Positions 5,075 through 22,733 of a stretch of 64,000 nucleotides of DNA are shown here, in pieces. Source of the stretch: Gimesia benthica. GTDB lineage: Bacteria; Planctomycetota; Planctomycetia; Planctomycetales; Planctomycetaceae. The notes beneath the pieces were generated by a model. It was not told the origin of the DNA. It saw only the letters and a program-made list of their open reading frames with translations, and did not search any database. Location of the stretch: contig NZ_CP043930.1 in assembly GCF_009720525.1 (NCBI RefSeq), positions 3,070,501 through 3,134,500 of the forward strand. Reading direction: 5' to 3'. A program made the position numbers and the translations under genes. The stretch's first letter is position 1. Each line of letters begins with the position of its first letter.

Positions 5075-5911
5075 ATGGCCGCCCTCGTTTCCTGCCTGAC
5101 CAACTCCTATGGTCGCTTTGGTCCCGTCGCCGCGATCGAACACATCCGCGATGCCGGAATCGATCACCTCGAACTCAACATCAAAAACCACGGCGTCCCC
5201 TCGTTTTTCAAAGAGACGCCGCTGCTCACGGAAGCCTCCACTGCTGAGGATATCGCGCACGTCAAAGATCTGTTGAAACAACACCATGTCAAACTCTCCA
5301 GCTGCAACATTACCACCGGCAATCCCCTCGATCCGGAAGTCGTCACCAAGACGAAACGAAAGCTCGACCTCGCTCATCAGCTGGGCGTCCGACTCGTCGT
5401 AGGCGGCGCGGGAGAAATCGAACAGGAATCGGATCGTGACACCCTCTACCAGCACCTCCGTGAAATCGGCGATTACGCAGGCGAACAGGGCATCACCTAC
5501 TGCTTCGAAACGCACCCCGGCATCTGCGTCAACGCAGCCGGGATGCTCCGCACCATGCAGGACCTGGATCACCCCAACCTGCGGCTCAACTTCGATACAG
5601 GCAACATCAATTACTACAACGAGCACGCGAATGTCCTGGAGTCCCTGCACGAGGTCGTCACCTGGGTCAAACACGTGCACCTCAAAGACTCTTACTGCAA
5701 ATTCAAGGACTGGAATTTCACCGCTCTGGGCGAAGCGGGAGGCGTCGACTTCTTGAAGATCCGCTACATCCTCGAAGACCACAACTTCAATGGCCCCTAC
5801 AGTCTCGAAATCGAAGGCATCGAAGGGGAACCGGAGCTGACGCTGGAAGAACATCACAACCGCGTCAAACAGAGTGTAGTCTACCTGCGGGAGTGCGGCT
5901 TTTTTGAGTGA
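5075..5911 (+). CDS. Sugar phosphate isomerase/epimerase family TIM-barrel protein
   Basis: A 278-residue AP-endonuclease-2/xylose-isomerase-like TIM barrel. Metal-site type residues are visible in the usual order: an acidic cluster in GGAGEIEQ, CFETHPG (Glu/His), LNFDTGN (Asp), VKHVHLKD (His) and SLEIEGIEGEP near the end. Such proteins isomerise or epimerise sugars and keto-sugars, and some act on 3-keto glycosides, but this sequence does not give the substrate. No signal peptide. The DinB-like gene follows after 11 bp with its own GAGGA site, so the two are probably co-transcribed. Confidence 0.85.
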   Translation: MAALVSCLTNSYGRFGPVAAIEHIRDAGIDHLELNIKNHGVPSFFKETPLLTEASTAEDIAHVKDLLKQHHVKLSSCNITTGNPLDPEVVTKTKRKLDLAHQLGVRLVVGGAGEIEQESDRDTLYQHLREIGDYAGEQGITYCFETHPGICVNAAGMLRTMQDLDHPNLRLNFDTGNINYYNEHANVLESLHEVVTWVKHVHLKDSYCKFKDWNFTALGEAGGVDFLKIRYILEDHNFNGPYSLEIEGIEGEPELTLEEHHNRVKQSVVYLRECGFFE

Positions 5912-5922
5912 GGACTTAAGCG

Positions 5923-6423
5923 ATGATCGAATACGTCAGACACATCCTGTGTGCGCAGTTTGAAGCTTCACTGGGAATGCTGGATGACTGTATTCAAAAC
6001 TGCCCGCCCGCGCACTGGCAGAAGAAAATCGCCAACATGGAGTTCGGCTACGTCGCCTATCATGCACTCTGTTATGTCGACCTCTACCTCTCCCCTAGCC
6101 TGGCTGAGTTTCAACTCCGCGAATTCCATAACGAGCATGTCGAAAACCGCTTCAAACCCAAAGCCGACTATCCCATCACGCCAGAGTTGGTGAGCGATTA
6201 CCTGCAGACCTGTCTCCAGAAAATGCGGGAAACCATCGCCGCCGAAACGGAAGCCTCGCTTAACCTGCGGGCCGACTTTGACTGGCTGGAACCATTCACC
6301 CGTGGAGAATTACACCTCTATAGTATCCGCCACATCCAGCATCACACTGGTGCCCTCAGCGCGTACCTCAGGCGACTCGACATCAACCTGAAATGGGGAC
6401 ACACAGGCTGGTCCTCTCGCTGA
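5923..6423 (+). CDS. DinB-like four-helix protein
   Basis: A 166-residue DinB/YfiT-like helical bundle. The family uses three histidines to bind a metal; candidates are in VAYHALCY (about residue 48) and the pair in SIRHIQHHTGALSAYLRR near residues 129-136, the C-terminal signature of the superfamily. Thiol-transferase or damage-related roles are known for some members; none can be assigned here. GAGGACTTAAGCG before the ATG gives a good ribosome-binding site, 11 bp behind the isomerase. Its end lies only 25 bp from the restored end of the convergent giant gene. Confidence 0.75.
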   Translation: MIEYVRHILCAQFEASLGMLDDCIQNCPPAHWQKKIANMEFGYVAYHALCYVDLYLSPSLAEFQLREFHNEHVENRFKPKADYPITPELVSDYLQTCLQKMRETIAAETEASLNLRADFDWLEPFTRGELHLYSIRHIQHHTGALSAYLRRLDINLKWGHTGWSSR

Positions 6424-6448
6424 AAGACCAGCCTGCGTTAAGTCAGCT

Positions 6449-9400
6449 TTAATCCCGGGGAGGATCCAGGCGCAATTCAAGATCCTTAAAGCGGACCTCC
6501 ATCGGCCCGCCGGAATGAATCTGGAACGCCAGAATGCCGGACTTGGCCCCTGGGGATCATTCAGATCCGTGCACAATTTACCGTTGATGTAAGTCCGAAT
6601 CCGCGGGCCGACAGCAACCACCCGGTATTCATTCCAGTCCCCTTCACGGACATGCTGCTCGCCGGACTCCTTGAATAACAGGCCCCGGCCATGTTCTTCA
6701 TACAGCTTGCCCCACCAGCCGGCACCGATGTCGGCCTGGTACCCTTTGACATGGCCTCCCGGCTGCAGACTGCTGCGGAACTGAATCCCGCTGTTCCCTG
6801 CATTCGGCGTGAGTTTCACTTTGACTTTCAGCTCGAAATCGCCGACCAGCATGTCGCTCACCAGGAACTCATTCCGCTTGATCCCCGGCGAACGGCCTAC
6901 AATCTCACCGTTCTCCACGAACCAGAGCTGACTGTCCCCCGACCAGCCGGTCAGATCCTGACCATTAAAGAACTGCTTCAAATTCTCCGGCGTCGCCTTC
7001 ATCGGCACCTGCCCGGGGCTCGCCAGATATTTAACCAGCGAACGTACCTCCACCCGACTGAGCTGTTTCCACAGATTATCGGGCATCATCGATTTGTCGC
7101 TCAGGCTCATCTCGTCAATTTCGTCACGGGGGATGATCACCGTCTCGTTCGCCGTCGCGACTGTCACCGCGTTCTTATCTTCCTTCTTGATGATTCCGGT
7201 AATAATCCGCCCTGATTCCGTGACAATCACTGCCGGCTGATAATCCTTCGCCATCACCGCACTCGGATCGACTACGTTCGACAGCAGATAATCGAGGTTG
7301 GCCCGGTTCGAACCGGTCAGTTCCGGACCAATGCTGGCTCCTGTTCCAAACAACTTATGGCACTGTTGACAGGTCTTCGCAAAGATCGCCCGCCCCAGGT
7401 TGATATCAGGCGTCGGATGCGGTCGCTCGATCATATTCTTATAGCTGGCGATCAGTTTTTTCTTATCCGCAGCTGACTCACGGACAACGCCCCACACCTT
7501 GCCGATCTTGGCATTCAGCTCTTTATCTTTAAGATTCCCCAGCTGACGAATAATTTCCGCAGACAGATCCTTGGAAGGGACTTCCCCCGCTTCCACCGCA
7601 GCCACCAGCTGCTCAGCAAAGTTCAACCGGCTTGCCAGTGTATTCAGCGCATCCCGCTTTTCATTCAGATCGTACTGAGGATACCGCTCCAGGATCGCCG
7701 TCGCGATCGCCGCATCCGGGTAACCGGCCAGCCCCCGCAGTGCTTCGCGGCGGATTCCCTTCTGATCCAGCAACGGAATCAGAATCGGCACCAGTTGCGG
7801 ATCGCGGACCCCCAGCAGACTATCCAGGGCCGACTTCCGCCCCGCCAGATCGTTCTTCTGGTCCGCAACGATTTCCCGCAACCGCTGCATCGCCGCCGGG
7901 TCACCAAAGGTCACCGCCAGCGACAAAGAACGTGACTTCACCACTGGATCCTGACTCGCCATCAGCCGTTTACCCACACTCTTCCAGGGGGTCGGCATCG
8001 GAAACTGGCGTCGTCCCCGCAATGCGCTGTTAATCGAATCCAGAAAGACTTTCTGCTCATCCGCAGTCTGCGCTCCTCCCAGTTGTTCCACCAGAAAAGC
8101 GACCGCCTCTTCGGTTCCGATATCTGCAATCCGCCGCAATGTGTATGACTCGATCAGCGGAATCTTCGCATCTTTCGCCAGGGCATAGGCCTGCTGCATG
8201 TCATGCGGTGCCAGCGGCTCCAGGGCATACCAGTAGAGCAATGGCAGATTATGATCGTGCTGATCTTCCGCGTGACTCACCAGACCTTTGAGAATTCCCG
8301 CCCGCTGATCCAGTGGTAGCCGGTTGGCCGCCGACCCCAGGTAGAGACGCACCACCGGTGAAGGATCCTGCTTCGCCAGTGCTTCCATTGTTTCTAATAA
8401 CTGCTTTGACGGCGCTCCCGTTTCCAGCGCTAGCTGAATCGCCCAGCCCCGCATAAATTCGCTCGGGTCTTTTAAAGCCTGCATCACTTTCGCTTCCGAA
8501 AGTCCGCCTGTCACATGCAGGGCCCACAGTCCTCGCAGGCGACGCGTCACGTCGTCATTACCAAAGGCAATCTCCGCCAGTTGTGCGTGCACTTCCGGGT
8601 CGGCACCCCGCTCCTGCAGAATGCGTCGGGACTGCCGCACGTACCAGTCATTCTCGTGCAATTGCAGCTTGACCAGTTCGGCACTCGTCAGTTTCTGCAG
8701 ATCGACTTTGACCGGCTTCGCATCGTTATATGCCACGCGAAAAATCCGCCCGTTCGAACGGTCGTGCTTTTGAAATTCACGATGATGGCACTGGTTCGTG
8801 TCATACCAGTCAATGAAATAGACCTGCCCGTCCGGACCGTACCGCAGATAGAGAATCTGTGAAGAACGATCGTTCGCATACAGGAAATCGGGAGCAAAGT
8901 CGCCAATATATCCCGACCCTTCGCGGGCCAGCTGATCCTGATTCAAACGGGCACCATGAATGTTGTTCATGAACAACTGATTGTGATACTTCTTCGGCCA
9001 GCTGCCTCCCAGATAGATCATCGCCCCGGCATGCGCGTGTCCCCCGCCCACCCGGTCGGAAGCGACCCGGTCCGACTGGTTCCATTGCCCGCCGGTCCAG
9101 TGCCGGTGTTTGGCAATCGTTTTAATGTCGTCGTAAGTGTAAGGATTGAAGTGCTGCCCCGCCTGTCTGCGATAACGCGCGTTCTGCACGATATGAAACA
9201 GGTGCGGAATCACACAGCAGGTCAGAAAGCACTGCCCCTGATCGTTGAAGTCCACACCCCACGGGTTACTCGTCCCGTGCGCAAAGACTTCGAACTCGTG
9301 CCGCGTCGGATGATACCGCCAGATCCCGGCATTGATCGGCTGTCGCTGATCATCGGGCGTCCCCGGCTTCCCGACCCGGGAATGCGTAAACACACCATGG

Positions 9401-11673
9401 CACCCGTAGAGCCAGCCGTCCGGTCCCCAGATGAACGAGTTCAATGTTTCGTGCGTATCTTCGTAATGCCAGCCATCCAGCAGAATCTCTGGTTCTCCGT
9501 CTGGCTTATCGTCGCCGTTCTTATCGGGAATGAACAGCAGGTACGGCGCCTGCCCCACCCACACGCCGCCAAAGCCGACTTCCAGACCGCTCACCAGGTT
9601 CAGCTTCTCCTGAAAGACCTTCCGCGTCTCAAATTTACCGTCGGCATCTTTATCTTCGAAAATCAGAATCCGGTCTTTCCCTTTTCCCTCCGGCTGCTTG
9701 CTGGGATAGGCATACGATTCCGCCACCCACAAACGCCCGCGATCGTCAATCGTCATCGCGATCGGCTGCTGCACATCGGGTTCGGCAGCAACCAGCGAGA
9801 CCGAAAACCCATCCGGTACCGACATCACTTCCGCCGCTTTCTTTCCGGGCAGACCGTCATACTTTTGTGTATGCTCCTGCGCGAGGGCTCCACTGTCCGC
9901 TACTTCCAGTTGTGCTGGCTGTTTATCGTGGAAACGGAAATGATCGAAGTTAATGTGTCCCCAGCCTCCCTTATGCTGATCCACCAGCCGAATAAAGATC
10001 TCTTTCCCCTGGTATTTCGTCAGATCTACCAGCTCCTGGTGCATCCGCTCATTGTTGCGACCACTGGCTTTCGCAATCACCTTATTCGTCGCCCGGTCCA
10101 CAATTTCGACCCGCGTCGAATCGTGACTCCCGCCACCGACATAAAACGTGGCATAAGGATGTGTCACATTGATCGAAGCCGAAGACAGTGTCCCCACGGG
10201 GACATCTTCCAGAACTTCATAAGTGCCTACCCAGAACTGCCCCTGGTGATTGCTCACCATATCACGACGACGCGCCTTGACCGTATCCCCTTTGACCGGC
10301 TGCGAACGGAATGCCTCTCCCTCCGCAACCCAGTCTTTCAGATCACCGGTCTCAAAATCGAGATTCAACCGCCGTCCGTCAGCATTTGTGGCAAAATGCT
10401 CGCCCGGCTTGAGCTCATTTTTCACCGAGACTTTCTTAGGCACATACTTTTTCGGCTGTGCCTGCTTCCAGGTCGCTTCATCTACTTTCACCTGTTTATG
10501 CTTCAGCAGATACGTACCCGACTTATTCCCCACCACCAGATCCGGGAGCTTGTTCCCCGTCACATCGCCAGCGACCACCTGGGTCCCCACTCCCGACTTG
10601 TCATTGATCTGGTAAGGCAGAAAATCCACGCCCTTCGGCGTCCGCACAATTTTGAACCAGTAGTTGACCGGCGGTTCTTTGGCCCCCGGGTCATGCCCCT
10701 GATGCGCCCAGAACCGTTTCCCGGTTACAATATCCTTAACGCCGTCACCATCCATGTCTACCAGATCGACGGCGTGCAGCTGCGAGAAGACTACGCCATA
10801 CTTGTTCTCTTCCGGCTTGCTCCCCATGATCGGATGCTCGACGAACGTAATCTCGCCATCTTTCTTGACGTTTTCAAACCAGGAGAGACCGTATGCGTGG
10901 GCCGCTTTACTGGTGATCACATCCTGGTCCCCGTCGCCATCCACGTCGTAGGCATACATCTGAGAACCGCCCGCACCAGTAAACTTAAACGGGTGCCGTG
11001 TCCAGAAACCGGCTTTCTGCAGATCAGCCGGCTGTTCCCACCAGCCATTCTTCTCGAGGATGTCCTGCTTTCCGTCGCCATTCACATCCCCCACACCCAG
11101 CCCGTGTGTAAAGCGACCATACTTCAGATTGGGCGAGACCGCATGAAAGCTCCAGGGCTTCGTCGGATCTTTTCCCGGCCCTGCATAGCCAAGTTGTCCC
11201 CCCGTGTGGAACACCAGTTCCGGCTCTCCATCTCCCGTCAGGTCGGTATAAGTTGGCGACTCGTTATCGACCACCGGATGCGCCAGGTACCGCTTCCAGT
11301 GCCCCGACTGTTTCTGCGGATTCGCATACCAGTAAGCTTCCTTACCGGGGAACCCGATGATCACGATGTCGGGCCACTCATCCTTGTTGACATCATTCAC
11401 AAACGCAAAGAAGTTGTCGGAATAGCCGTTGATGCTCCATTCCTTGACCGGATAGTACTCGTGCTTCGTTTTGAAGTCTGGCCCCGCGTACCAGTACGGT
11501 CCGGAAATCAGATCCTGGTGACCGTCCCGGTTCAGATCGCCGAAGGTCGCCCCTTCTGCATAGAACTTATCACCCAACTGCAGACGGTCAAACTGGTGGA
11601 GCGTGAACTCCTCTGCAGCAGCCAGCGGTGCCGCCAGAATCAGCGATAACAGGAACAGGGAGTAACGAGCCAT
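6449..11673 (-). CDS. Giant secreted FG-GAP / PVC haem dehydrogenase / HEAT / cytochrome c / DUF1080 protein, frame broken near 3' end
   Basis: About 1741 residues once one G is restored at 6547-6550. It has a signal peptide (1-20, ending PLAAAEE). Residues about 25-400 carry FG-GAP/VCBS calcium-type repeats (DLNRDGHQD, DVNGDGKQD, DVDGDGDQD, DMDGDGVKD). About 430-600 is a carbohydrate-binding-like beta region. About 650-1000 is the PVC-type membrane-bound dehydrogenase propeller (GFSVSLVAAEPDVQQPIAM, RLWVAESYAYP). About 1040-1400 is HEAT-like. A class I cytochrome c motif CQQCH lies at about 1435-1439. DUF1080, the 3-keto-disaccharide hydrolase family, runs from about 1575 to the end. Without the correction the ORF runs to 6310 and crosses the DinB gene. 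It follows the Gfo/Idh gene after 67 bp in the same direction. Inferred role: periplasmic oxidation, then cleavage, of a glycan. Confidence 0.85.
6547..6550 (-). other. Frameshift site in the giant DUF1080 fusion gene
   Basis: The coding strand has GGGG. A fifth G gives the expected DUF1080 ending (AKSGILAFQIHSGGPMEVRF, then KDLELRLDPPRD and a TAA at 6449-6451) and ends the gene before the convergent DinB gene. Confidence 0.9.
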
Positions 11674-11740
11674 AACGGTCCCCTCGAATATCTATGTGAA
11701 TGATGTCGATATATCAAATGCTTACAGTGACGTACGCCAG

Positions 11741-12856
11741 TTATTCCAGTGTGAACTCGGGCAGCTTGCGGATCTCGCCCCCTGCCACGGCAGACTCATG
11801 TGCCAGAATTCCTACGCTGGTCCAGTTCGCAGACAGCGGGGCGTTCGGCCAGGGATCAGTATCTTCCACCAGCGACTTCAGAAACGCATGCACCAGGTGC
11901 GGATGCGAACCACCGTGCCCGGCCCCCTGCAGAAACGAGAGATGGTCCGCGTCGTGTATCGCCCGGGTGAAATTCTGAATCTCAGGCGGCAGCAGATGCG
12001 CGTAATCGGGCACTTCCACACGCTCGGGAATTTCGGGTTCCGGCTTCTTCGCTGTGTGCAGCACCGGGTTCTCCCCTTCGATCAGAGGCCACTCAAATGA
12101 TTTTTTCGTGCCATACACGTCCACCGATTCCCGGTACTGCCGCGCGGTATCAAACAGGAACCGCCAGATGTGAGCCGCGACATCAGAATCCTTGATTTTA
12201 ATGTGACACGTCTCCACAGCGAATTTGTTGCCCGACTTTTCCGCGATGTCGTCGTTCACGGTCCCGGAACCAAAGCAGCTCACATACTCGGCCCGACCGT
12301 TGACCATCCCCAGTACCGGACTCACCACGTGCGTCGCATAGTGCATCGGGATCATCCGCTCCCAGTACTCGGGCCAGCCTTCCATGTCCTGCGGGTGACT
12401 GGCCTGCATGTACTGAATCTTGCCCAGCTCCCCTTTGTCGTACATCTCCTTGATGAAGAGAAACTCGCGGCTGTAAACTACCGTCTCCATCATCATGTAT
12501 TTCAGTCCGGTCTCTTTGACCGTCTTGACGATTTCTTCGCACTCCGCCACCGTCGTTGCCATCGGCACCGTACACGCCACGTGCTTCCCTGCCTTCAACG
12601 CTTTAATCGACTGCGGAGCATGATCGGGAATCGGCGTGTTAATATGAACGGCATCCACATCAGGATCCGCCAGCAGTTCATCGTAAGAGGTATAACGTTT
12701 CTCAATCCCGAACGTATCGCCGATCTCGTTCAGATGATCTTCCGAACGCTGACAGATCGCATGCATGTTGGCATTCGGATGCGCCTGGTAAATGGGAATG
12801 AACTCGGCACCAAATCCCAGACCGACAATCGCGACATTCATCTGTTTCTCACTCAT
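11741..12856 (-). CDS. Gfo/Idh/MocA family oxidoreductase
   Basis: A 371-residue NAD(P)-dependent oxidoreductase. The N-terminal Rossmann motif is VAIVGLGFGAEFIP; the acidic strand end of the next repeat is replaced by HAICQRSEDH. The family signature around the nicotinamide appears as AGKHVACTVPMATTVAECEEI, with TVPM in place of the common EKPL/EKPM, an unusual variant lacking the Glu-Lys pair. Soluble, with no Tat or Sec signal. SD AAGGA before the ATG. It is the first gene of an operon with the giant DUF1080 fusion and is divergent from a XylR-type regulator, so a sugar or sugar-acid substrate is likely. The exact substrate is unknown. Confidence 0.85.
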   Translation of the reverse strand: MSEKQMNVAIVGLGFGAEFIPIYQAHPNANMHAICQRSEDHLNEIGDTFGIEKRYTSYDELLADPDVDAVHINTPIPDHAPQSIKALKAGKHVACTVPMATTVAECEEIVKTVKETGLKYMMMETVVYSREFLFIKEMYDKGELGKIQYMQASHPQDMEGWPEYWERMIPMHYATHVVSPVLGMVNGRAEYVSCFGSGTVNDDIAEKSGNKFAVETCHIKIKDSDVAAHIWRFLFDTARQYRESVDVYGTKKSFEWPLIEGENPVLHTAKKPEPEIPERVEVPDYAHLLPPEIQNFTRAIHDADHLSFLQGAGHGGSHPHLVHAFLKSLVEDTDPWPNAPLSANWTSVGILAHESAVAGGEIRKLPEFTLE

Positions 12857-12975
12857 GGCATTCCTTCTACGCTGCAGGAGACACTCTCTGTTTGATCCGG
12901 TTCACTCCTCGGGGGAACCCGGTCCATTTTCTTTATTGTAAATGCTCCCCTATCGAGTACCATGTAAACTTGCGC

Positions 12976-13004
12976 ATAATAAATTGAGATATTTCACCTC
13001 ACAA
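12976..13004 (-). promoter_or_regulatory. Candidate sigma70-type promoter with inverted repeat, Gfo/Idh operon
   Basis: Reading the minus strand: TTGTGA (13004-12999), a 17-bp spacer, then TATTAT (12981-12976), about 120 bp before the Gfo/Idh start. A TGAG/CTCA inverted repeat (12985-12988 and 12998-13001) lies across the spacer and is a possible operator for the divergent regulator. Predicted by eye only. Confidence 0.45.
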
Positions 13005-13123
13005 CAAAACTGCCTTCATCCATGCTATCAGGGGTCTGAGACCGTTTGCCAGACGAGCTGTCACTGAATCCCTTTAAGAATATTACATTTACGTCGCCCT
13101 CAATTCCGCCCGAAACCGGCTCC

Positions 13124-14284
13124 ATGAAATCACGCCCCTCAATCGCCCTGCTCATCGAATCATCCAACTCCTATGCCCGCGGACTCTTACGTGGCATCAT
13201 GGCTTACATTCACGAGCACCACTCCTGGTCGATCTACCTCCCCGAACATGGTCGAGGCAATGTCCCCGTCAACTGGCTCAACAGCTGGCACGGCGACGGC
13301 ATCATCGCGCGAATTGAAAATACGAAGACCGCTGAAGCCGTCGTGAACTCCGGTGTCCCGGCCGTCGATGTGAGTGCCGCCCGTCTGGCCCCCTCGCTCC
13401 CCTGGGTCGAAACCGATGACCGCGCGATCGCCTCTCTGGCCGCGCAGCACCTCATCGAACGCGGCTTCGAGCACTACGCCTTCTGTGGCGATCATCGCTT
13501 CAACTGGTCCCGCTGGCGGGAAGACCATTTCCAGAACGTCATCCAGGACTCCGGCTTTACCTGTCACGCCTATCCGCAGACAACCGGCCGCAAACAGGCG
13601 CCCCCCTGGGAAGCAGAACAGCAACGCCTGGCCGACTGGATTCAGCAACTCCCCAAACCAGTCGGCATCATGGCCTGTTACGACATTAAAGCGCAGCAAC
13701 TGCTCGATGTCTGCCGTACAGTCAACGTCTCTGTCCCCGAAGAAGTCGCCATCATCGGCGTGGACAATGACGAAATTCTCTGTAACCTCTCCGAGCCTCC
13801 CCTCTCCAGTGTGATCCCCAACACGCGTCTCACCGGCTACGAAGCAGCCGCCCTGCTCGATCGCATGATCGCCGGCGAACCGGTCTCTTCAGACGCCCAT
13901 CTCATCAAGCCCCTGGGAATTGCCACGCGCCAGTCCACCGATATCCAGGCCATCGACGACAAACTGATCTCCGACGCCGTCCGTTTCATCCGTCAGCAGG
14001 CCTGCGAAGGCATTAACGTGCAGGACGTTTTAAAGTCGGTCCCCCTCTCCCGGCGGGTCCTCGAAAGCCGCTTCCAGAAAATCATCGGCCGCTCACCACA
14101 CGAAGAGATCATGCGCATCCGCCTCGCTCGCGTGAAACAACTGCTCGAAGAAACCGAACTCCCGCTGATTGAAATCGCCAGCCGCACCGGCTTTCGCCAC
14201 TCCGAATATCTGAACGTCGCCTTCAAAAAACAGACCGGCACCACCCCCGGCCAGTTCCGCCGCGAACAAAAACAGACGCGTTGA
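13124..14284 (+). CDS. XylR-type regulator (sugar-binding domain plus AraC HTH)
   Basis: About 386 residues from the ATG at 13124; a TTG at 13046 would add 26 residues of no family resemblance. The N-terminal part (about 1-270) is a LacI/periplasmic-binding-like sensor (PSIALLIESSNSYARGLLRG, GIMACYDIKAQQLLDVCR, EEVAIIGVDNDEILCNLSEP). The C-terminal 100 residues are an AraC-type double HTH ending LIEIASRTGFRHSEYLNVAF and TPGQFRRE. This matches the xylose-regulator XylR family, which activates sugar catabolic genes on ligand binding. Divergent placement suggests control of the Gfo/Idh-DUF1080 operon. The ligand is not known. Confidence 0.88.
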   Translation: MKSRPSIALLIESSNSYARGLLRGIMAYIHEHHSWSIYLPEHGRGNVPVNWLNSWHGDGIIARIENTKTAEAVVNSGVPAVDVSAARLAPSLPWVETDDRAIASLAAQHLIERGFEHYAFCGDHRFNWSRWREDHFQNVIQDSGFTCHAYPQTTGRKQAPPWEAEQQRLADWIQQLPKPVGIMACYDIKAQQLLDVCRTVNVSVPEEVAIIGVDNDEILCNLSEPPLSSVIPNTRLTGYEAAALLDRMIAGEPVSSDAHLIKPLGIATRQSTDIQAIDDKLISDAVRFIRQQACEGINVQDVLKSVPLSRRVLESRFQKIIGRSPHEEIMRIRLARVKQLLEETELPLIEIASRTGFRHSEYLNVAFKKQTGTTPGQFRREQKQTR

Positions 14285-21917: not shown

Positions 21918-22733
21918 GTGAAAACCGCATCTGCTCTCATTGCCGGTCTGTCTCTCTGCCTGACGCTCTGCCTGCCTGCTACTCTCTCTGCTGAAGAGAA
22001 AGCACCTCAGGAAAAATGGATCCCCCTGTTCAACGGGAAAAACCTGGATGGCTGGACTGTCAAAATCCGGGGTTATGAACCAGGCGTCAATTATGCAGAT
22101 ACGTTTCGGGTGCAGGATGGGTTACTCACCGTCGACTATGAGCACTACGATGCCTTCGATGAAAAATTCGGTCACATCTTCTACAAAGACACCTTTTCCC
22201 ACTACATCATCCGCGTGGAATATCGTTTCGTCGGCGACCAGGTCAAAGGCGGACCGGGCTGGGCATTTCGTAACAGTGGCATCATGGTCCACGGCCAGAG
22301 TCCCGAAAGCATGTCCCTTGACCAGCGTTTTCCGGTTTCCATTGAAGTCCAGCTGCTGGGTGGGAAACCGACAGGCAAACGCAGTACTGCCAACCTCTGC
22401 ACCCCGGGCACGAACGTCGTCATGGACAACAAACTCTTCATGCCCCACTGCATCGACTCCTCTTCCAAAACCTATCGCGGCGATCAGTGGGTCACCGTTG
22501 ACGTCGAAGTCAAAGGCAACAAGATCATCAAACACGTCATTGACGGGGAAACCGTGCTCTCGTACACCAAGCCCCAACTCGACCCCAAAGACGCCGATGC
22601 CCAGAAGCTGATCGAACAGGGCGCCCCGATCATGCTGGATAAAGGAACCATTTCCCTGCAGTCGGAAAGTCACCCTGTTCAGTTCCGGAAAGTGGAACTG
22701 CTCAATCTCGCCCCCGAAAACAGCAGTAATTGA
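21918..22733 (+). CDS. Secreted DUF1080 (3-keto-disaccharide hydrolase family) protein
   Basis: 271 residues from a GTG start with AAGGA ten bases upstream. Signal peptide 1-25 (ALIAGLSLCLTLCLPATLSA). The rest is one DUF1080 jelly-roll: KWIPLFNGKNLDGWTVKIRG, GWAFRNSGIMVHGQSPE, VSIEVQLLGGK and GTISLQSESHPVQFRKVELL. The family hydrolyses 3-keto-glycosides or binds glycans at the cell surface. It is a separate single-domain relative of the DUF1080 end of the giant protein at 6449-11673. No co-directional partner is close enough for an operon. Confidence 0.88.
   Translation: MKTASALIAGLSLCLTLCLPATLSAEEKAPQEKWIPLFNGKNLDGWTVKIRGYEPGVNYADTFRVQDGLLTVDYEHYDAFDEKFGHIFYKDTFSHYIIRVEYRFVGDQVKGGPGWAFRNSGIMVHGQSPESMSLDQRFPVSIEVQLLGGKPTGKRSTANLCTPGTNVVMDNKLFMPHCIDSSSKTYRGDQWVTVDVEVKGNKIIKHVIDGETVLSYTKPQLDPKDADAQKLIEQGAPIMLDKGTISLQSESHPVQFRKVELLNLAPENSSN

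Follow-up and report, generated by a model that had tools for sequence, protein, structure and literature searches.

A window of 64,000 nucleotides (the whole stretch of DNA analysed) from Gimesia benthica carries a giant open reading frame (ORF), a Gfo/Idh-type oxidoreductase gene directly upstream on the same strand, a divergent XylR-type regulator gene and a convergent gene for a xylose-isomerase-like TIM barrel (Table 1).

Table 1. Features of the giant-gene locus, in window coordinates
Feature	Coordinates	Strand	Basis or remark
Giant ORF	6310..11673	-	1787 aa as read
Signal peptide, residues 1-21 (LAAA/EEF)	11611..11673	-	Sec-type, judged by eye
FG-GAP/VCBS propeller	10483..11610	-	PF13517, PF01839; predicted model, mean pLDDT 91.9
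Beta-rich domain	9874..10386	-	Predicted model; homologous modules in relatives' loci; without Pfam family
DUF7133/TIGR02604 propeller, residues 611-983	8725..9843	-	Profiles; model of the L001 relative
Alpha-helical HEAT-repeat region, approx. residues 990-1410	7444..8706	-	HEAT_2 at 1235-1315; helices in the L001 model
TIGR02603 cytochrome c, CQQCH haem site, SMMP as methionine-ligand candidate	7018..7407	-	Profile
PF06439 (DUF1080) in the frame of the giant ORF, profile positions 3-157 of 187	6544..6978	-	Profile
Frame break at approx. 6545 in a G-rich run; homologous DUF1080 end in another frame to 6449	6449..6550	-	Comparison with relatives
Gfo/Idh-type oxidoreductase, 371 aa	11741..12856	-	PF01408; no signal peptide by eye
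XylR-type regulator, divergent	13046..14284	+	PBP1_XylR and AraC HTH
Xylose-isomerase-like TIM barrel, convergent	5075..5911	+	PF01261

From its profile matches, the giant ORF is assigned to the TIGR02604/DUF7133 family of PVC-type haem-binding CxxCH proteins, haem domain included. TIGR02604 matched at E = 2.5e-121 (405.5 bits, curated cut-off 122.2) and DUF7133 at 1e-69. Further matches were FG-GAP_3 (2.6e-25), HEAT_2 (3.5e-7), the C-terminal haem domain TIGR02603 (4.2e-31; 107.7 bits, cut-off 68.15) and PF06439 (9.3e-31; 107.8 bits, gathering score 26.8), the last over only part of its profile. An earlier note on this DNA had listed these modules in this order for a secreted protein. All were matched except a region called carbohydrate-binding-like, and the signal peptide agrees with secretion. 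At that region a beta-rich domain is confidently predicted, and we infer from the model a carbohydrate-binding-like jelly roll. Relaxing the Pfam threshold to E ≤ 1 brought no match for the window's piece, and the corresponding piece of relative L020 gave a sub-threshold SGL match (0.0023).

The homologous part of the giant ORF spans approximately residues 1–1710 and is followed by a non-homologous tail. Compared with five relatives (L001–L004 and L016), whose end is intact, the C-terminus of the G. benthica gene is one base short; the rest of the frame is 82–86% identical to theirs (best segments). The five other same-genus genomes sampled all match to query residue 1742, and G. benthica stops at 1712. 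A gene end at 6449, as first proposed, is reached only by leaving the frame of the ORF, which stays open to 6310. Across 23 DUF1080 sequences, 29 columns are invariant. Invariant residues G154, Q159, H161 and G163 lie beyond the break and are lost from the ORF as read, so that the DUF1080 domain, previously taken as intact, is frameshifted at its end in this copy. Either cleavage by DUF1080 may thus be lost in the genome as sequenced, or the one-base gap could stem from an error in sequencing. The frame break had escaped the earlier note.

The DUF7133 propeller and the haem domain are near-obligate partners. Among 32 G. benthica frames with any TIGR02604 match, TIGR02603 was over cut-off in 28, weak in two and absent from two, which bears out the proposal that propeller and haem belong together in one chain. 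The C, C and H of the haem site are present in 31/31 sequences, and the candidate methionine ligand in 30/31 (one gap). The putative axial pocket of DUF7133 is rich in His and lined by His and Asn; the four-His set of the giant type is retained in only one of five paralogues checked. No known redox cofactor site was seen in DUF7133. By sequence search, aldose and glucose dehydrogenase structures were matched in fragments only (2g8s, E = 0.038; 7cdy, E = 1.5). Among the 50 Foldseek matches listed, which give no aligned ranges, enzyme propellers were represented by SMP30/gluconolactonase and a lactonase and not by dehydrogenases; glucose dehydrogenase was absent from the 50.

The earlier note had suggested looking for a quinone or calcium site in a sugar-dehydrogenase-like propeller. 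In sGDH and AA12 enzymes, PQQ is described as held by an Arg-Asn pair and further Arg/Lys residues (PMC6881789). In 20/20 giant-type rows, Ser replaces the arginine that precedes the conserved Asn; the remaining PQQ-holding positions were compared with an sGDH stretch by eye alone. PqqC (TIGR02111) had no match in the G. benthica genome and was not found in five other same-genus genomes sampled. Any PqqC match was seen in nine of 294 sampled genomes, over cut-off in one, and none in 14 control genomes; genome G252 of the 294-genome search (1.5e-99) was thus taken as the positive control. The PqqE search was uninformative, with below-cut-off matches in G. benthica and all 14 controls. Given Ser for Arg and the missing PqqC, PQQ is unlikely as the DUF7133 cofactor, although scavenged PQQ could serve. 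The label "sugar dehydrogenase" thus has partial support: the pairing of propeller and haem speaks for it, and the absent arginine, the PqqC result and lactose hydrolysis by Lac161_ORF7 speak against it.

The VCBS propeller, which the earlier note called a calcium-repeat propeller, has seven blades, counted from strands. Residues E19, E117, H169 and H279 (alignment A5 numbering) stand at equivalent places of four blades and are invariant in 29/29 sequences. For the N-terminal model, Foldseek placed aldos-2-ulose dehydratase (AUDH) entries 4a7y, 4a7z and 4a7k at ranks 1, 3 and 7, in long but poor alignments (rmsd 22–23), with integrins scoring nearly as well; a sequence search found no AUDH match at E ≤ 0.001. 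AUDH is a keto-sugar enzyme with a zinc site in its propeller and with cupin and lectin domains. It shares a seven-bladed VCBS-type propeller with the giant protein, which has no counterpart of the cupin and lectin domains. AUDH has been placed in the VCBS group (PMC8023676). Among the genes that recur beside stand-alone VCBS genes of Verrucomicrobia, Pfam identified two, for a Lyase_1/ADSL_C protein at 11 loci and for a ROK protein at nine, and neither provided a functional clue.

The solved structure closest to the DUF1080 profile was 4jqt (BT3469; 2.2e-40), titled only "putative glycosyl hydrolase". CBM66 was matched at approximately 5.5e-5, and its structures are also among the Foldseek matches listed, where 3-keto-glycoside eliminase/hydratases occupy ranks 13–25 of 50. 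The Bacteroides BT_2157-type 3-keto-glycoside eliminase/hydratases (PDB 3osd, 8tda, 8rr2, 9fbe) have the PF06439 fold and family in common with the giant's DUF1080, which is a distant branch (approximately 0.006–0.008 over only 78 positions). PDB titles and the account in PMC9007349 support the earlier statement that DUF1080 relatives act on 3-keto-sugars. Some DUF1080 proteins, such as THTE_1561, have been taken for direct glycosidases (PMC5673643, PMC9007349).

The same domain order was found elsewhere, as the earlier note had invited. Outside G. benthica, 23 of the 294 genomes sampled from the phylum carry DUF7133 through DUF1080 within a single frame (counted by hand). The architecture is old, and its order, preserved in many genomes, is more than chance. 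Among fetched loci, 24 of 36 DUF7133-bearing ORFs include DUF1080, some ORFs being cut by contig ends. VCBS is not seen in 14 of these 24, part of which are truncated by contig ends or a broken frame. VCBS lies at the C-terminal end in L012 and is fused to DUF1080 in L053, and in a flavobacterium (L065) DUF1080, DUF7133-cytochrome and VCBS are three adjoining genes. The G. benthica genome holds approximately 30 TIGR02604 loci and 34 PF06439 matches. At 4/30 TIGR02604 loci, a DUF1080 gene lies no more than 3.5 kb away in the same orientation, the giant gene's own case being one of the four (shuffled mean 0.39, P = 0.0004; P = 0.002–0.012 at three other distances tried). Fusion, adjacency and neighbouring genes thus tie DUF1080 to this protein type, as had been proposed. 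One DUF1080 gene near a TIGR02604 locus also bears ThuA. A tree made by a quick method, with three very long branches of unsure place, was used only for change counts: two for DUF1080, four for VCBS and three for Gfo. Neither L006 row entered any of these counts. For VCBS, L007 and L024 were also excluded, and L003 and L021 were scored as having it though in another frame; the Gfo count is weak because a row with no sequence upstream was taken to have no Gfo.

The Gfo/Idh gene (PF01408, 1.9e-24; 87.1 bits against 24) ends 67 bp upstream of the giant gene, and its product is probably cytoplasmic. Gfo/Idh/MocA proteins usually carry an EKP motif with a lysine; here CTVP replaces it, as in 10/10 covering relatives (of 11). 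The operon partnership first suggested holds by position at this locus and is not supported as a rule. Gfo/Idh is directly upstream in 10/68 loci, many of which have only VCBS or no upstream sequence. In G. benthica, TIGR02604 and Gfo/Idh showed no enrichment within 3 kb (1/30, expected 0.57, P = 0.44) or 5 kb (2/30, expected 0.94, P = 0.24), the pair of the present locus counting at the larger distance alone; Gfo/Idh was accordingly rejected as a general TIGR02604 partner. DUF1080 near Gfo/Idh was mildly enriched at the 3-kb distance (3/30 against 0.59 expected, P = 0.019). The divergent gene matched both regulator domains, in agreement with the XylR-type call, and its start is likely the ATG at 13124, from where relatives align. 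A TIM-barrel gene is present where the earlier note placed it and was rejected as an operon member, since it lies on the opposite strand, convergent, with a DinB-like gene between. It remains a lead because an Agrobacterium 3-keto-glycoside eliminase is described as annotated sugar phosphate isomerase/epimerase (PMC10628242). A TIM-barrel relative adjoins the giant gene in L002–L004 and L016, and the window's barrel had no match in PHROGs.

Oxidation by the lactose 3-dehydrogenase LacABC of Caulobacter crescentus is coupled to a cytochrome. LacABC and a periplasmic DUF1080 protein (CCNA_01705) are proposed to act jointly on lactose, with extracytoplasmic oxidation followed by DUF1080 as 3-ketoglycoside hydrolase (PMC9007349). 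In that account these are separate polypeptides with a different dehydrogenase, whereas the giant is one chain with DUF7133 as candidate oxidase. The metagenomic Lac161_ORF7 shares the core of TIGR02604, HEAT and TIGR02603 cytochrome c, by domain names only, and has beta-galactosidase activity; the purified protein hydrolyses lactose with a Km of 1.8 mM, and the available text of the report mentions no acceptor and describes no VCBS, jelly roll or DUF1080 (PMC5342196). The fungal AA8-AA12-CBM1 enzyme CcPDH likewise joins a propeller oxidase, a haem domain and a carbohydrate-binding module in one secreted chain; as described, it differs in using haem b and PQQ, whose arginine the giant does not keep, and in lacking a keto-sugar-cleaving domain (PMC6881789).

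The favoured reading, held tentatively at a probability of about 0.38, is a periplasmic or secreted haem-carrying multi-enzyme that breaks down glycans by an oxidise-then-cleave keto-sugar route. The jelly roll, and perhaps propeller faces, would hold the glycan. DUF7133 would oxidise a sugar hydroxyl in its axial pocket, at a centre that is probably not PQQ held in the usual way and for which a bound metal is likeliest. Electrons would leave through the TIGR02603 haem c of the same chain. DUF1080 would cleave the keto-glycoside, as proposed for LacABC and its DUF1080 partner, with elimination possibly by the Glu/His-bearing VCBS propeller. The Gfo/Idh enzyme, judging from its position, may handle the released keto-sugar or product under the XylR-type regulator. 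The earlier idea of one chain that oxidises a sugar, reduces its own haem and cleaves the keto-glycoside thus keeps the haem pairing and the DUF1080 linkage and loses the quinone and, in this copy, the intact DUF1080. A fuller version, rather improbable, sees a complete non-Koshland line in one secreted chain, in which DUF7133, with a four-His metal centre in place of PQQ or flavin, would oxidise the sugar and pass electrons to haem c, VCBS would beta-eliminate the leaving group and DUF1080 would hydrate the product. If true, the DUF7133 of the giant type would represent a new class of sugar dehydrogenase that depends on a metal and is linked to a cytochrome.

Lac161_ORF7, a beta-galactosidase with the same described core domains, could mean direct hydrolysis: DUF7133 would be a metal-dependent glycosidase, DUF1080 and the jelly roll would only bind sugar in the manner of CBM66, and the haem would serve another purpose, for example docking or sensing. 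The CBM66 and gluconolactonase matches fit this alternative, which is judged somewhat unlikely. A haem domain retained so widely, with its C, C and H invariant, would be an expensive addition to a protein that is only a glycosidase; numerous polar positions of DUF1080 are invariant, and the domain lies far nearer 4jqt than CBM66; and the enzymatic support comes from one laboratory and one protein, whose products would also be expected from oxidation, elimination and hydration followed by reduction. The VCBS propeller may instead be the main cleaver, a metal-dependent keto-sugar lyase like AUDH with DUF1080 as hydratase. Its four invariant residues, the AUDH ranks and the fusion of VCBS to DUF1080 alone in L053 point that way, but the poor alignments, the near-equal integrins, the lack of a sequence match and the many DUF7133-DUF1080 ORFs without VCBS make this role unlikely.

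Nearest to the first proposal is a PQQ-dependent sugar dehydrogenase with haem c and DUF1080, a bacterial counterpart of the fungal AA12-AA8 enzymes. Below-cut-off matches to Pfam GSDH occur in two DUF7133 paralogues, the Arg-Asn pair is kept in two G. benthica paralogues, and His and Asn stand at the catalytic-His and conserved-Asn places (sequence register, judged by eye). Against these, the uniform Ser of the giant type, the PqqC searches and the missing glucose dehydrogenase among the Foldseek matches listed render it very improbable. The gene may also be decaying in G. benthica, leaving a cell-surface glycan-binding haem protein. The one-base difference and the intact same-genus copies would suit such decay, which is nevertheless decidedly improbable: the break is single in an open frame of approximately 1,710 residues, it falls at a G run prone to sequencing errors, and the remainder is highly similar to its relatives.

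New here are the invariant Glu/Glu/His/His of the VCBS propeller, whose top-ranked fold match is a keto-sugar dehydratase, and the His-rich DUF7133 pocket. The TIGR02604 family has some 30 loci in G. benthica, and a single experimental report on one of its members was found, that on Lac161_ORF7 (PMC5342196). The fusion places the TIGR02604 and PF06439 families in one reaction path and makes a specific question testable, namely whether a TIGR02604 propeller, given a glycoside, reduces the haem of its own chain, and whether a keto-sugar is the product. The single-chain DUF7133-haem-DUF1080 arrangement is common to many other planctomycetes and could oxidise and then break sugars.

The giant protein begins with a signal peptide (recognized by eye) and continues through FG-GAP/VCBS, beta-rich, DUF7133/TIGR02604, HEAT, TIGR02603 and C-terminal PF06439 (DUF1080) domains, the named ones being matched in profile searches. 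The TIGR02603 cytochrome c has the haem site CQQCH, and the unnamed beta-rich domain appears to be a jelly roll. A TIM barrel placed just beyond the giant by the earlier note is present, but on the other strand and behind an intervening gene. The membrane protein beside the regulator had no match in a Pfam search; its synteny is common to the close relatives L001–L004.

Features of the window and of other loci discussed
Feature	Coordinates	Strand	Remarks
Giant ORF, 1787 aa	6310-11673	minus	ORF call
TIM barrel PF01261	5075-5911	opposite to giant	DinB-like gene in between
Gfo/Idh-type gene	11741-12856		ends 67 bp upstream of giant
PBP1_XylR/AraC regulator		divergent	profile search
Membrane protein (by eye), 409 aa	14882-16111		adjoins regulator
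Second PF06439 protein, stand-alone	21918-22733		about 8 kb past regulator
Flavobacterial AraC-type regulator	L065:15491-16963	minus	HTH_AraC
DUF1080-ThuA and DUF7133-HEAT-cytochrome genes	L070:2475-7218		own genome, about 3.285-3.289 Mb
DUF1080-cytochrome c protein	L071:4725-8477		
Gfo/Idh and DUF1080 matches	C1:4271824-4273212		own genome; both report one 563-aa open frame

As sequenced, the last domain of the giant is broken at 6310–6550 by one base relative to L001–L004 and L016, which have one base more and an intact end. Past about residue 1710 the tail's resemblance to DUF1080 ends, and the expected end lies in another frame. Position 6449, given earlier as the end of the gene, is indeed where the homologous end stops, but is reached out of frame with the giant ORF. 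In the phylum sample, the match extends to residue 1742 in all five other same-genus genomes and stops at 1712 in the window's own. Residues G154, Q159, H161 and G163 (DUF1080 alignment A4), invariant in 23/23 DUF1080 sequences, are absent from the ORF as read. The break is located in a run of G and is thus possibly a sequencing error. In the metagenome-assembled relatives L003 and L021 the VCBS domain is in a different frame from the remaining domains, and these may likewise be errors.

One scan of genome contigs yielded 68 loci, whose ORFs were scored with home-made profiles. DUF7133 scored at least 60 bits in 36 ORFs, of which 24 also have DUF1080 and 18 have VCBS; contig ends truncate some of these ORFs. 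The giant was matched at 1e-30 or better in 89 of the 294 phylum-sample genomes. The domain order proposed as a search in the earlier note is conserved: by hand count of the listed rows, DUF7133 through DUF1080 occupy one stop-free frame in 23 sampled genomes besides the window's own, matched as a single piece in 21 and as several pieces sharing a frame in G024 and G137. A single piece runs from VCBS to the end in 14 of the 23, and two further genomes with the DUF7133-DUF1080 order carry a stop. On a quick-method tree of the DUF7133-HEAT-cytochrome core, three long branches of which are unsafe, DUF1080 changes twice and VCBS four times. VCBS is fused to DUF1080 in L053, C-terminal in L012, and a separate gene in many Verrucomicrobia loci; in L065 (Flavobacteriaceae), DUF1080, DUF7133-cytochrome and VCBS are three neighbouring genes. 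The verrucomicrobial loci L034–L064 encode secreted-looking stand-alone VCBS proteins, likely enzymes, with propellers 46–54% identical to that of L001; DUF1080 is nearby only at L053 and L064, and L061 has a DUF7133-cytochrome gene next to it. Two modules of the AraC-type regulator of L065 are homologues of the jelly roll in the giant (1e-18 and 1e-48), and this regulator is possibly a sugar sensor built from that binding module. A Gfo/Idh gene lies directly upstream in 10/68 loci and a XylR-type gene occurs in 6/68, many loci being VCBS only or lacking upstream sequence.

In the window's own genome (G000), TIGR02604 occurs at about 30 loci and PF06439 has 34 matches. The propeller-haem pairing is near-obligate: among 32 frames with any TIGR02604 match, TIGR02603 is over the cut-off in 28, weak in two and missing in two. 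DUF1080 is also linked to TIGR02604-type proteins, lying on the same strand within 3.5 kb of 4/30 loci (shuffled mean 0.39, P 0.0004; P 0.002–0.012 at 2.5, 5 and 8 kb). One case is the window's own protein, leaving three independent: a DUF1080 gene ahead of a DUF7133-cytochrome gene, the L070 pair, in which the DUF1080-ThuA fusion gene directly precedes its partner, and a fusion of DUF1080 with a cytochrome, in which the TIGR02604 region scores below threshold. The L071 protein has N-terminal DUF1080, a very divergent TIGR02604 region keeping Arg-Asn and C-terminal cytochrome c. No enrichment near Gfo/Idh genes was found for the TIGR02604 loci of this genome, and mild enrichment was found for its DUF1080 loci. 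The C1 frame probably also joins two keto-sugar enzymes in a single chain.

In PQQ-dependent glucose dehydrogenase and the AA12 enzyme CcPDH, PQQ is held by an Arg-Asn pair together with further charged residues (PMC6881789). In DUF7133, Asn and a His judged to be at the place of the catalytic one are invariant (23/23). The Arg is Ser in 20/20 giant-type rows and Arg-Asn is retained in two G000 paralogues; the PQQ synthesis marker PqqC had no match in G000, the identical search being positive in G252, another sampled genome. These results make PQQ an unlikely cofactor. The giant type shares H133, H271, H273 and H298 (alignment A3), kept in 1/5 own paralogues checked. In a model of L001 residues 600–1742 (mean pLDDT 87.6; low confidence just before H271), each of the four sits within three residues ahead of an innermost strand or immediately behind the strand that follows. 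This places them on a single face close to the axis, suggesting a possible metal centre. Among the 50 Foldseek matches listed for the whole of this model are SMP30/gluconolactonase and a lactonase propeller; glucose dehydrogenase is absent from them. A direct hydrolase is the main rival because Lac161_ORF7 (TIGR02604, HEAT and cytochrome c) is reported to hydrolyse lactose with a Km of 1.8 mM (PMC5342196), which may be true hydrolysis or the net outcome of redox steps.

DUF1080 need not imply a 3-keto substrate, since Thermogutta DUF1080 proteins, whose DUF1080 and CBM66 assignments overlap, are proposed to be direct xanthan glycosidases (PMC5673643). Among solved structures the giant's DUF1080 branch is closest to BT3469 (4jqt, 2.2e-40), distant from BT2157-type eliminase/hydratases (about 0.006–0.008) and faintly similar to CBM66, a binding module (5.5e-5). 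The polar residues of this branch do not vary across 23 aligned sequences, which speaks for a functional domain. The Gfo/Idh enzyme is a good PF01408 match with no signal peptide (by eye), and so would not contact the giant's extracytoplasmic substrate unless products are imported. The usual motif of the family is EKP; CTVP stands at this place in the window and in the ten relatives covering the site, so that the lysine usual there is consistently lost.

A model of the window's VCBS and beta-rich piece (mean pLDDT 91.9) has aldos-2-ulose dehydratase among its first Foldseek matches (4a7y, 4a7z and 4a7k; ranks 1, 3 and 7), with integrins and others; full-length superpositions are poor (rmsd 22–23), and the VCBS propeller had no sequence match to these dehydratases at E ≤ 0.001. 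They are enzymes of keto-sugars. The earlier note took this propeller as calcium repeats. E19, E117, H169 and H279 (alignment A5) are invariant in 29/29 aligned propellers, whose records are named as Planctomycetes, Verrucomicrobia and a Bacteroidota; each is six residues ahead of the Asp opening its metal-loop motif. The model puts E19, H169 and H279 two residues ahead of the innermost strand of their blade, and E117 within a longer predicted strand (106–122). H238 and K363 (29/29) come after second strands and so would lie on that face too, away from the calcium loops. From this register, the Glu/His set resembles a candidate axial metal site.

Each named part of the giant belongs to a known family; no description of their fusion was found in the literature searched. 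Fungi have a domain analogue (PMC6881789), and a related division of labour has been proposed in Caulobacter (PMC9007349). In our view, the giant is most likely a secreted enzyme that binds, oxidises and then cleaves a glycan via a keto-glycoside. The domains with their conserved order, the propeller-haem pairing, the DUF1080 link and the break in this genome as sequenced are observed in the sequences, and each chemical step is inferred. The bound glycan would be oxidised at the DUF7133 propeller, electrons would be handed to the protein's own haem c, and the keto-glycoside would be cleaved by DUF1080, perhaps with the assistance of the VCBS propeller.
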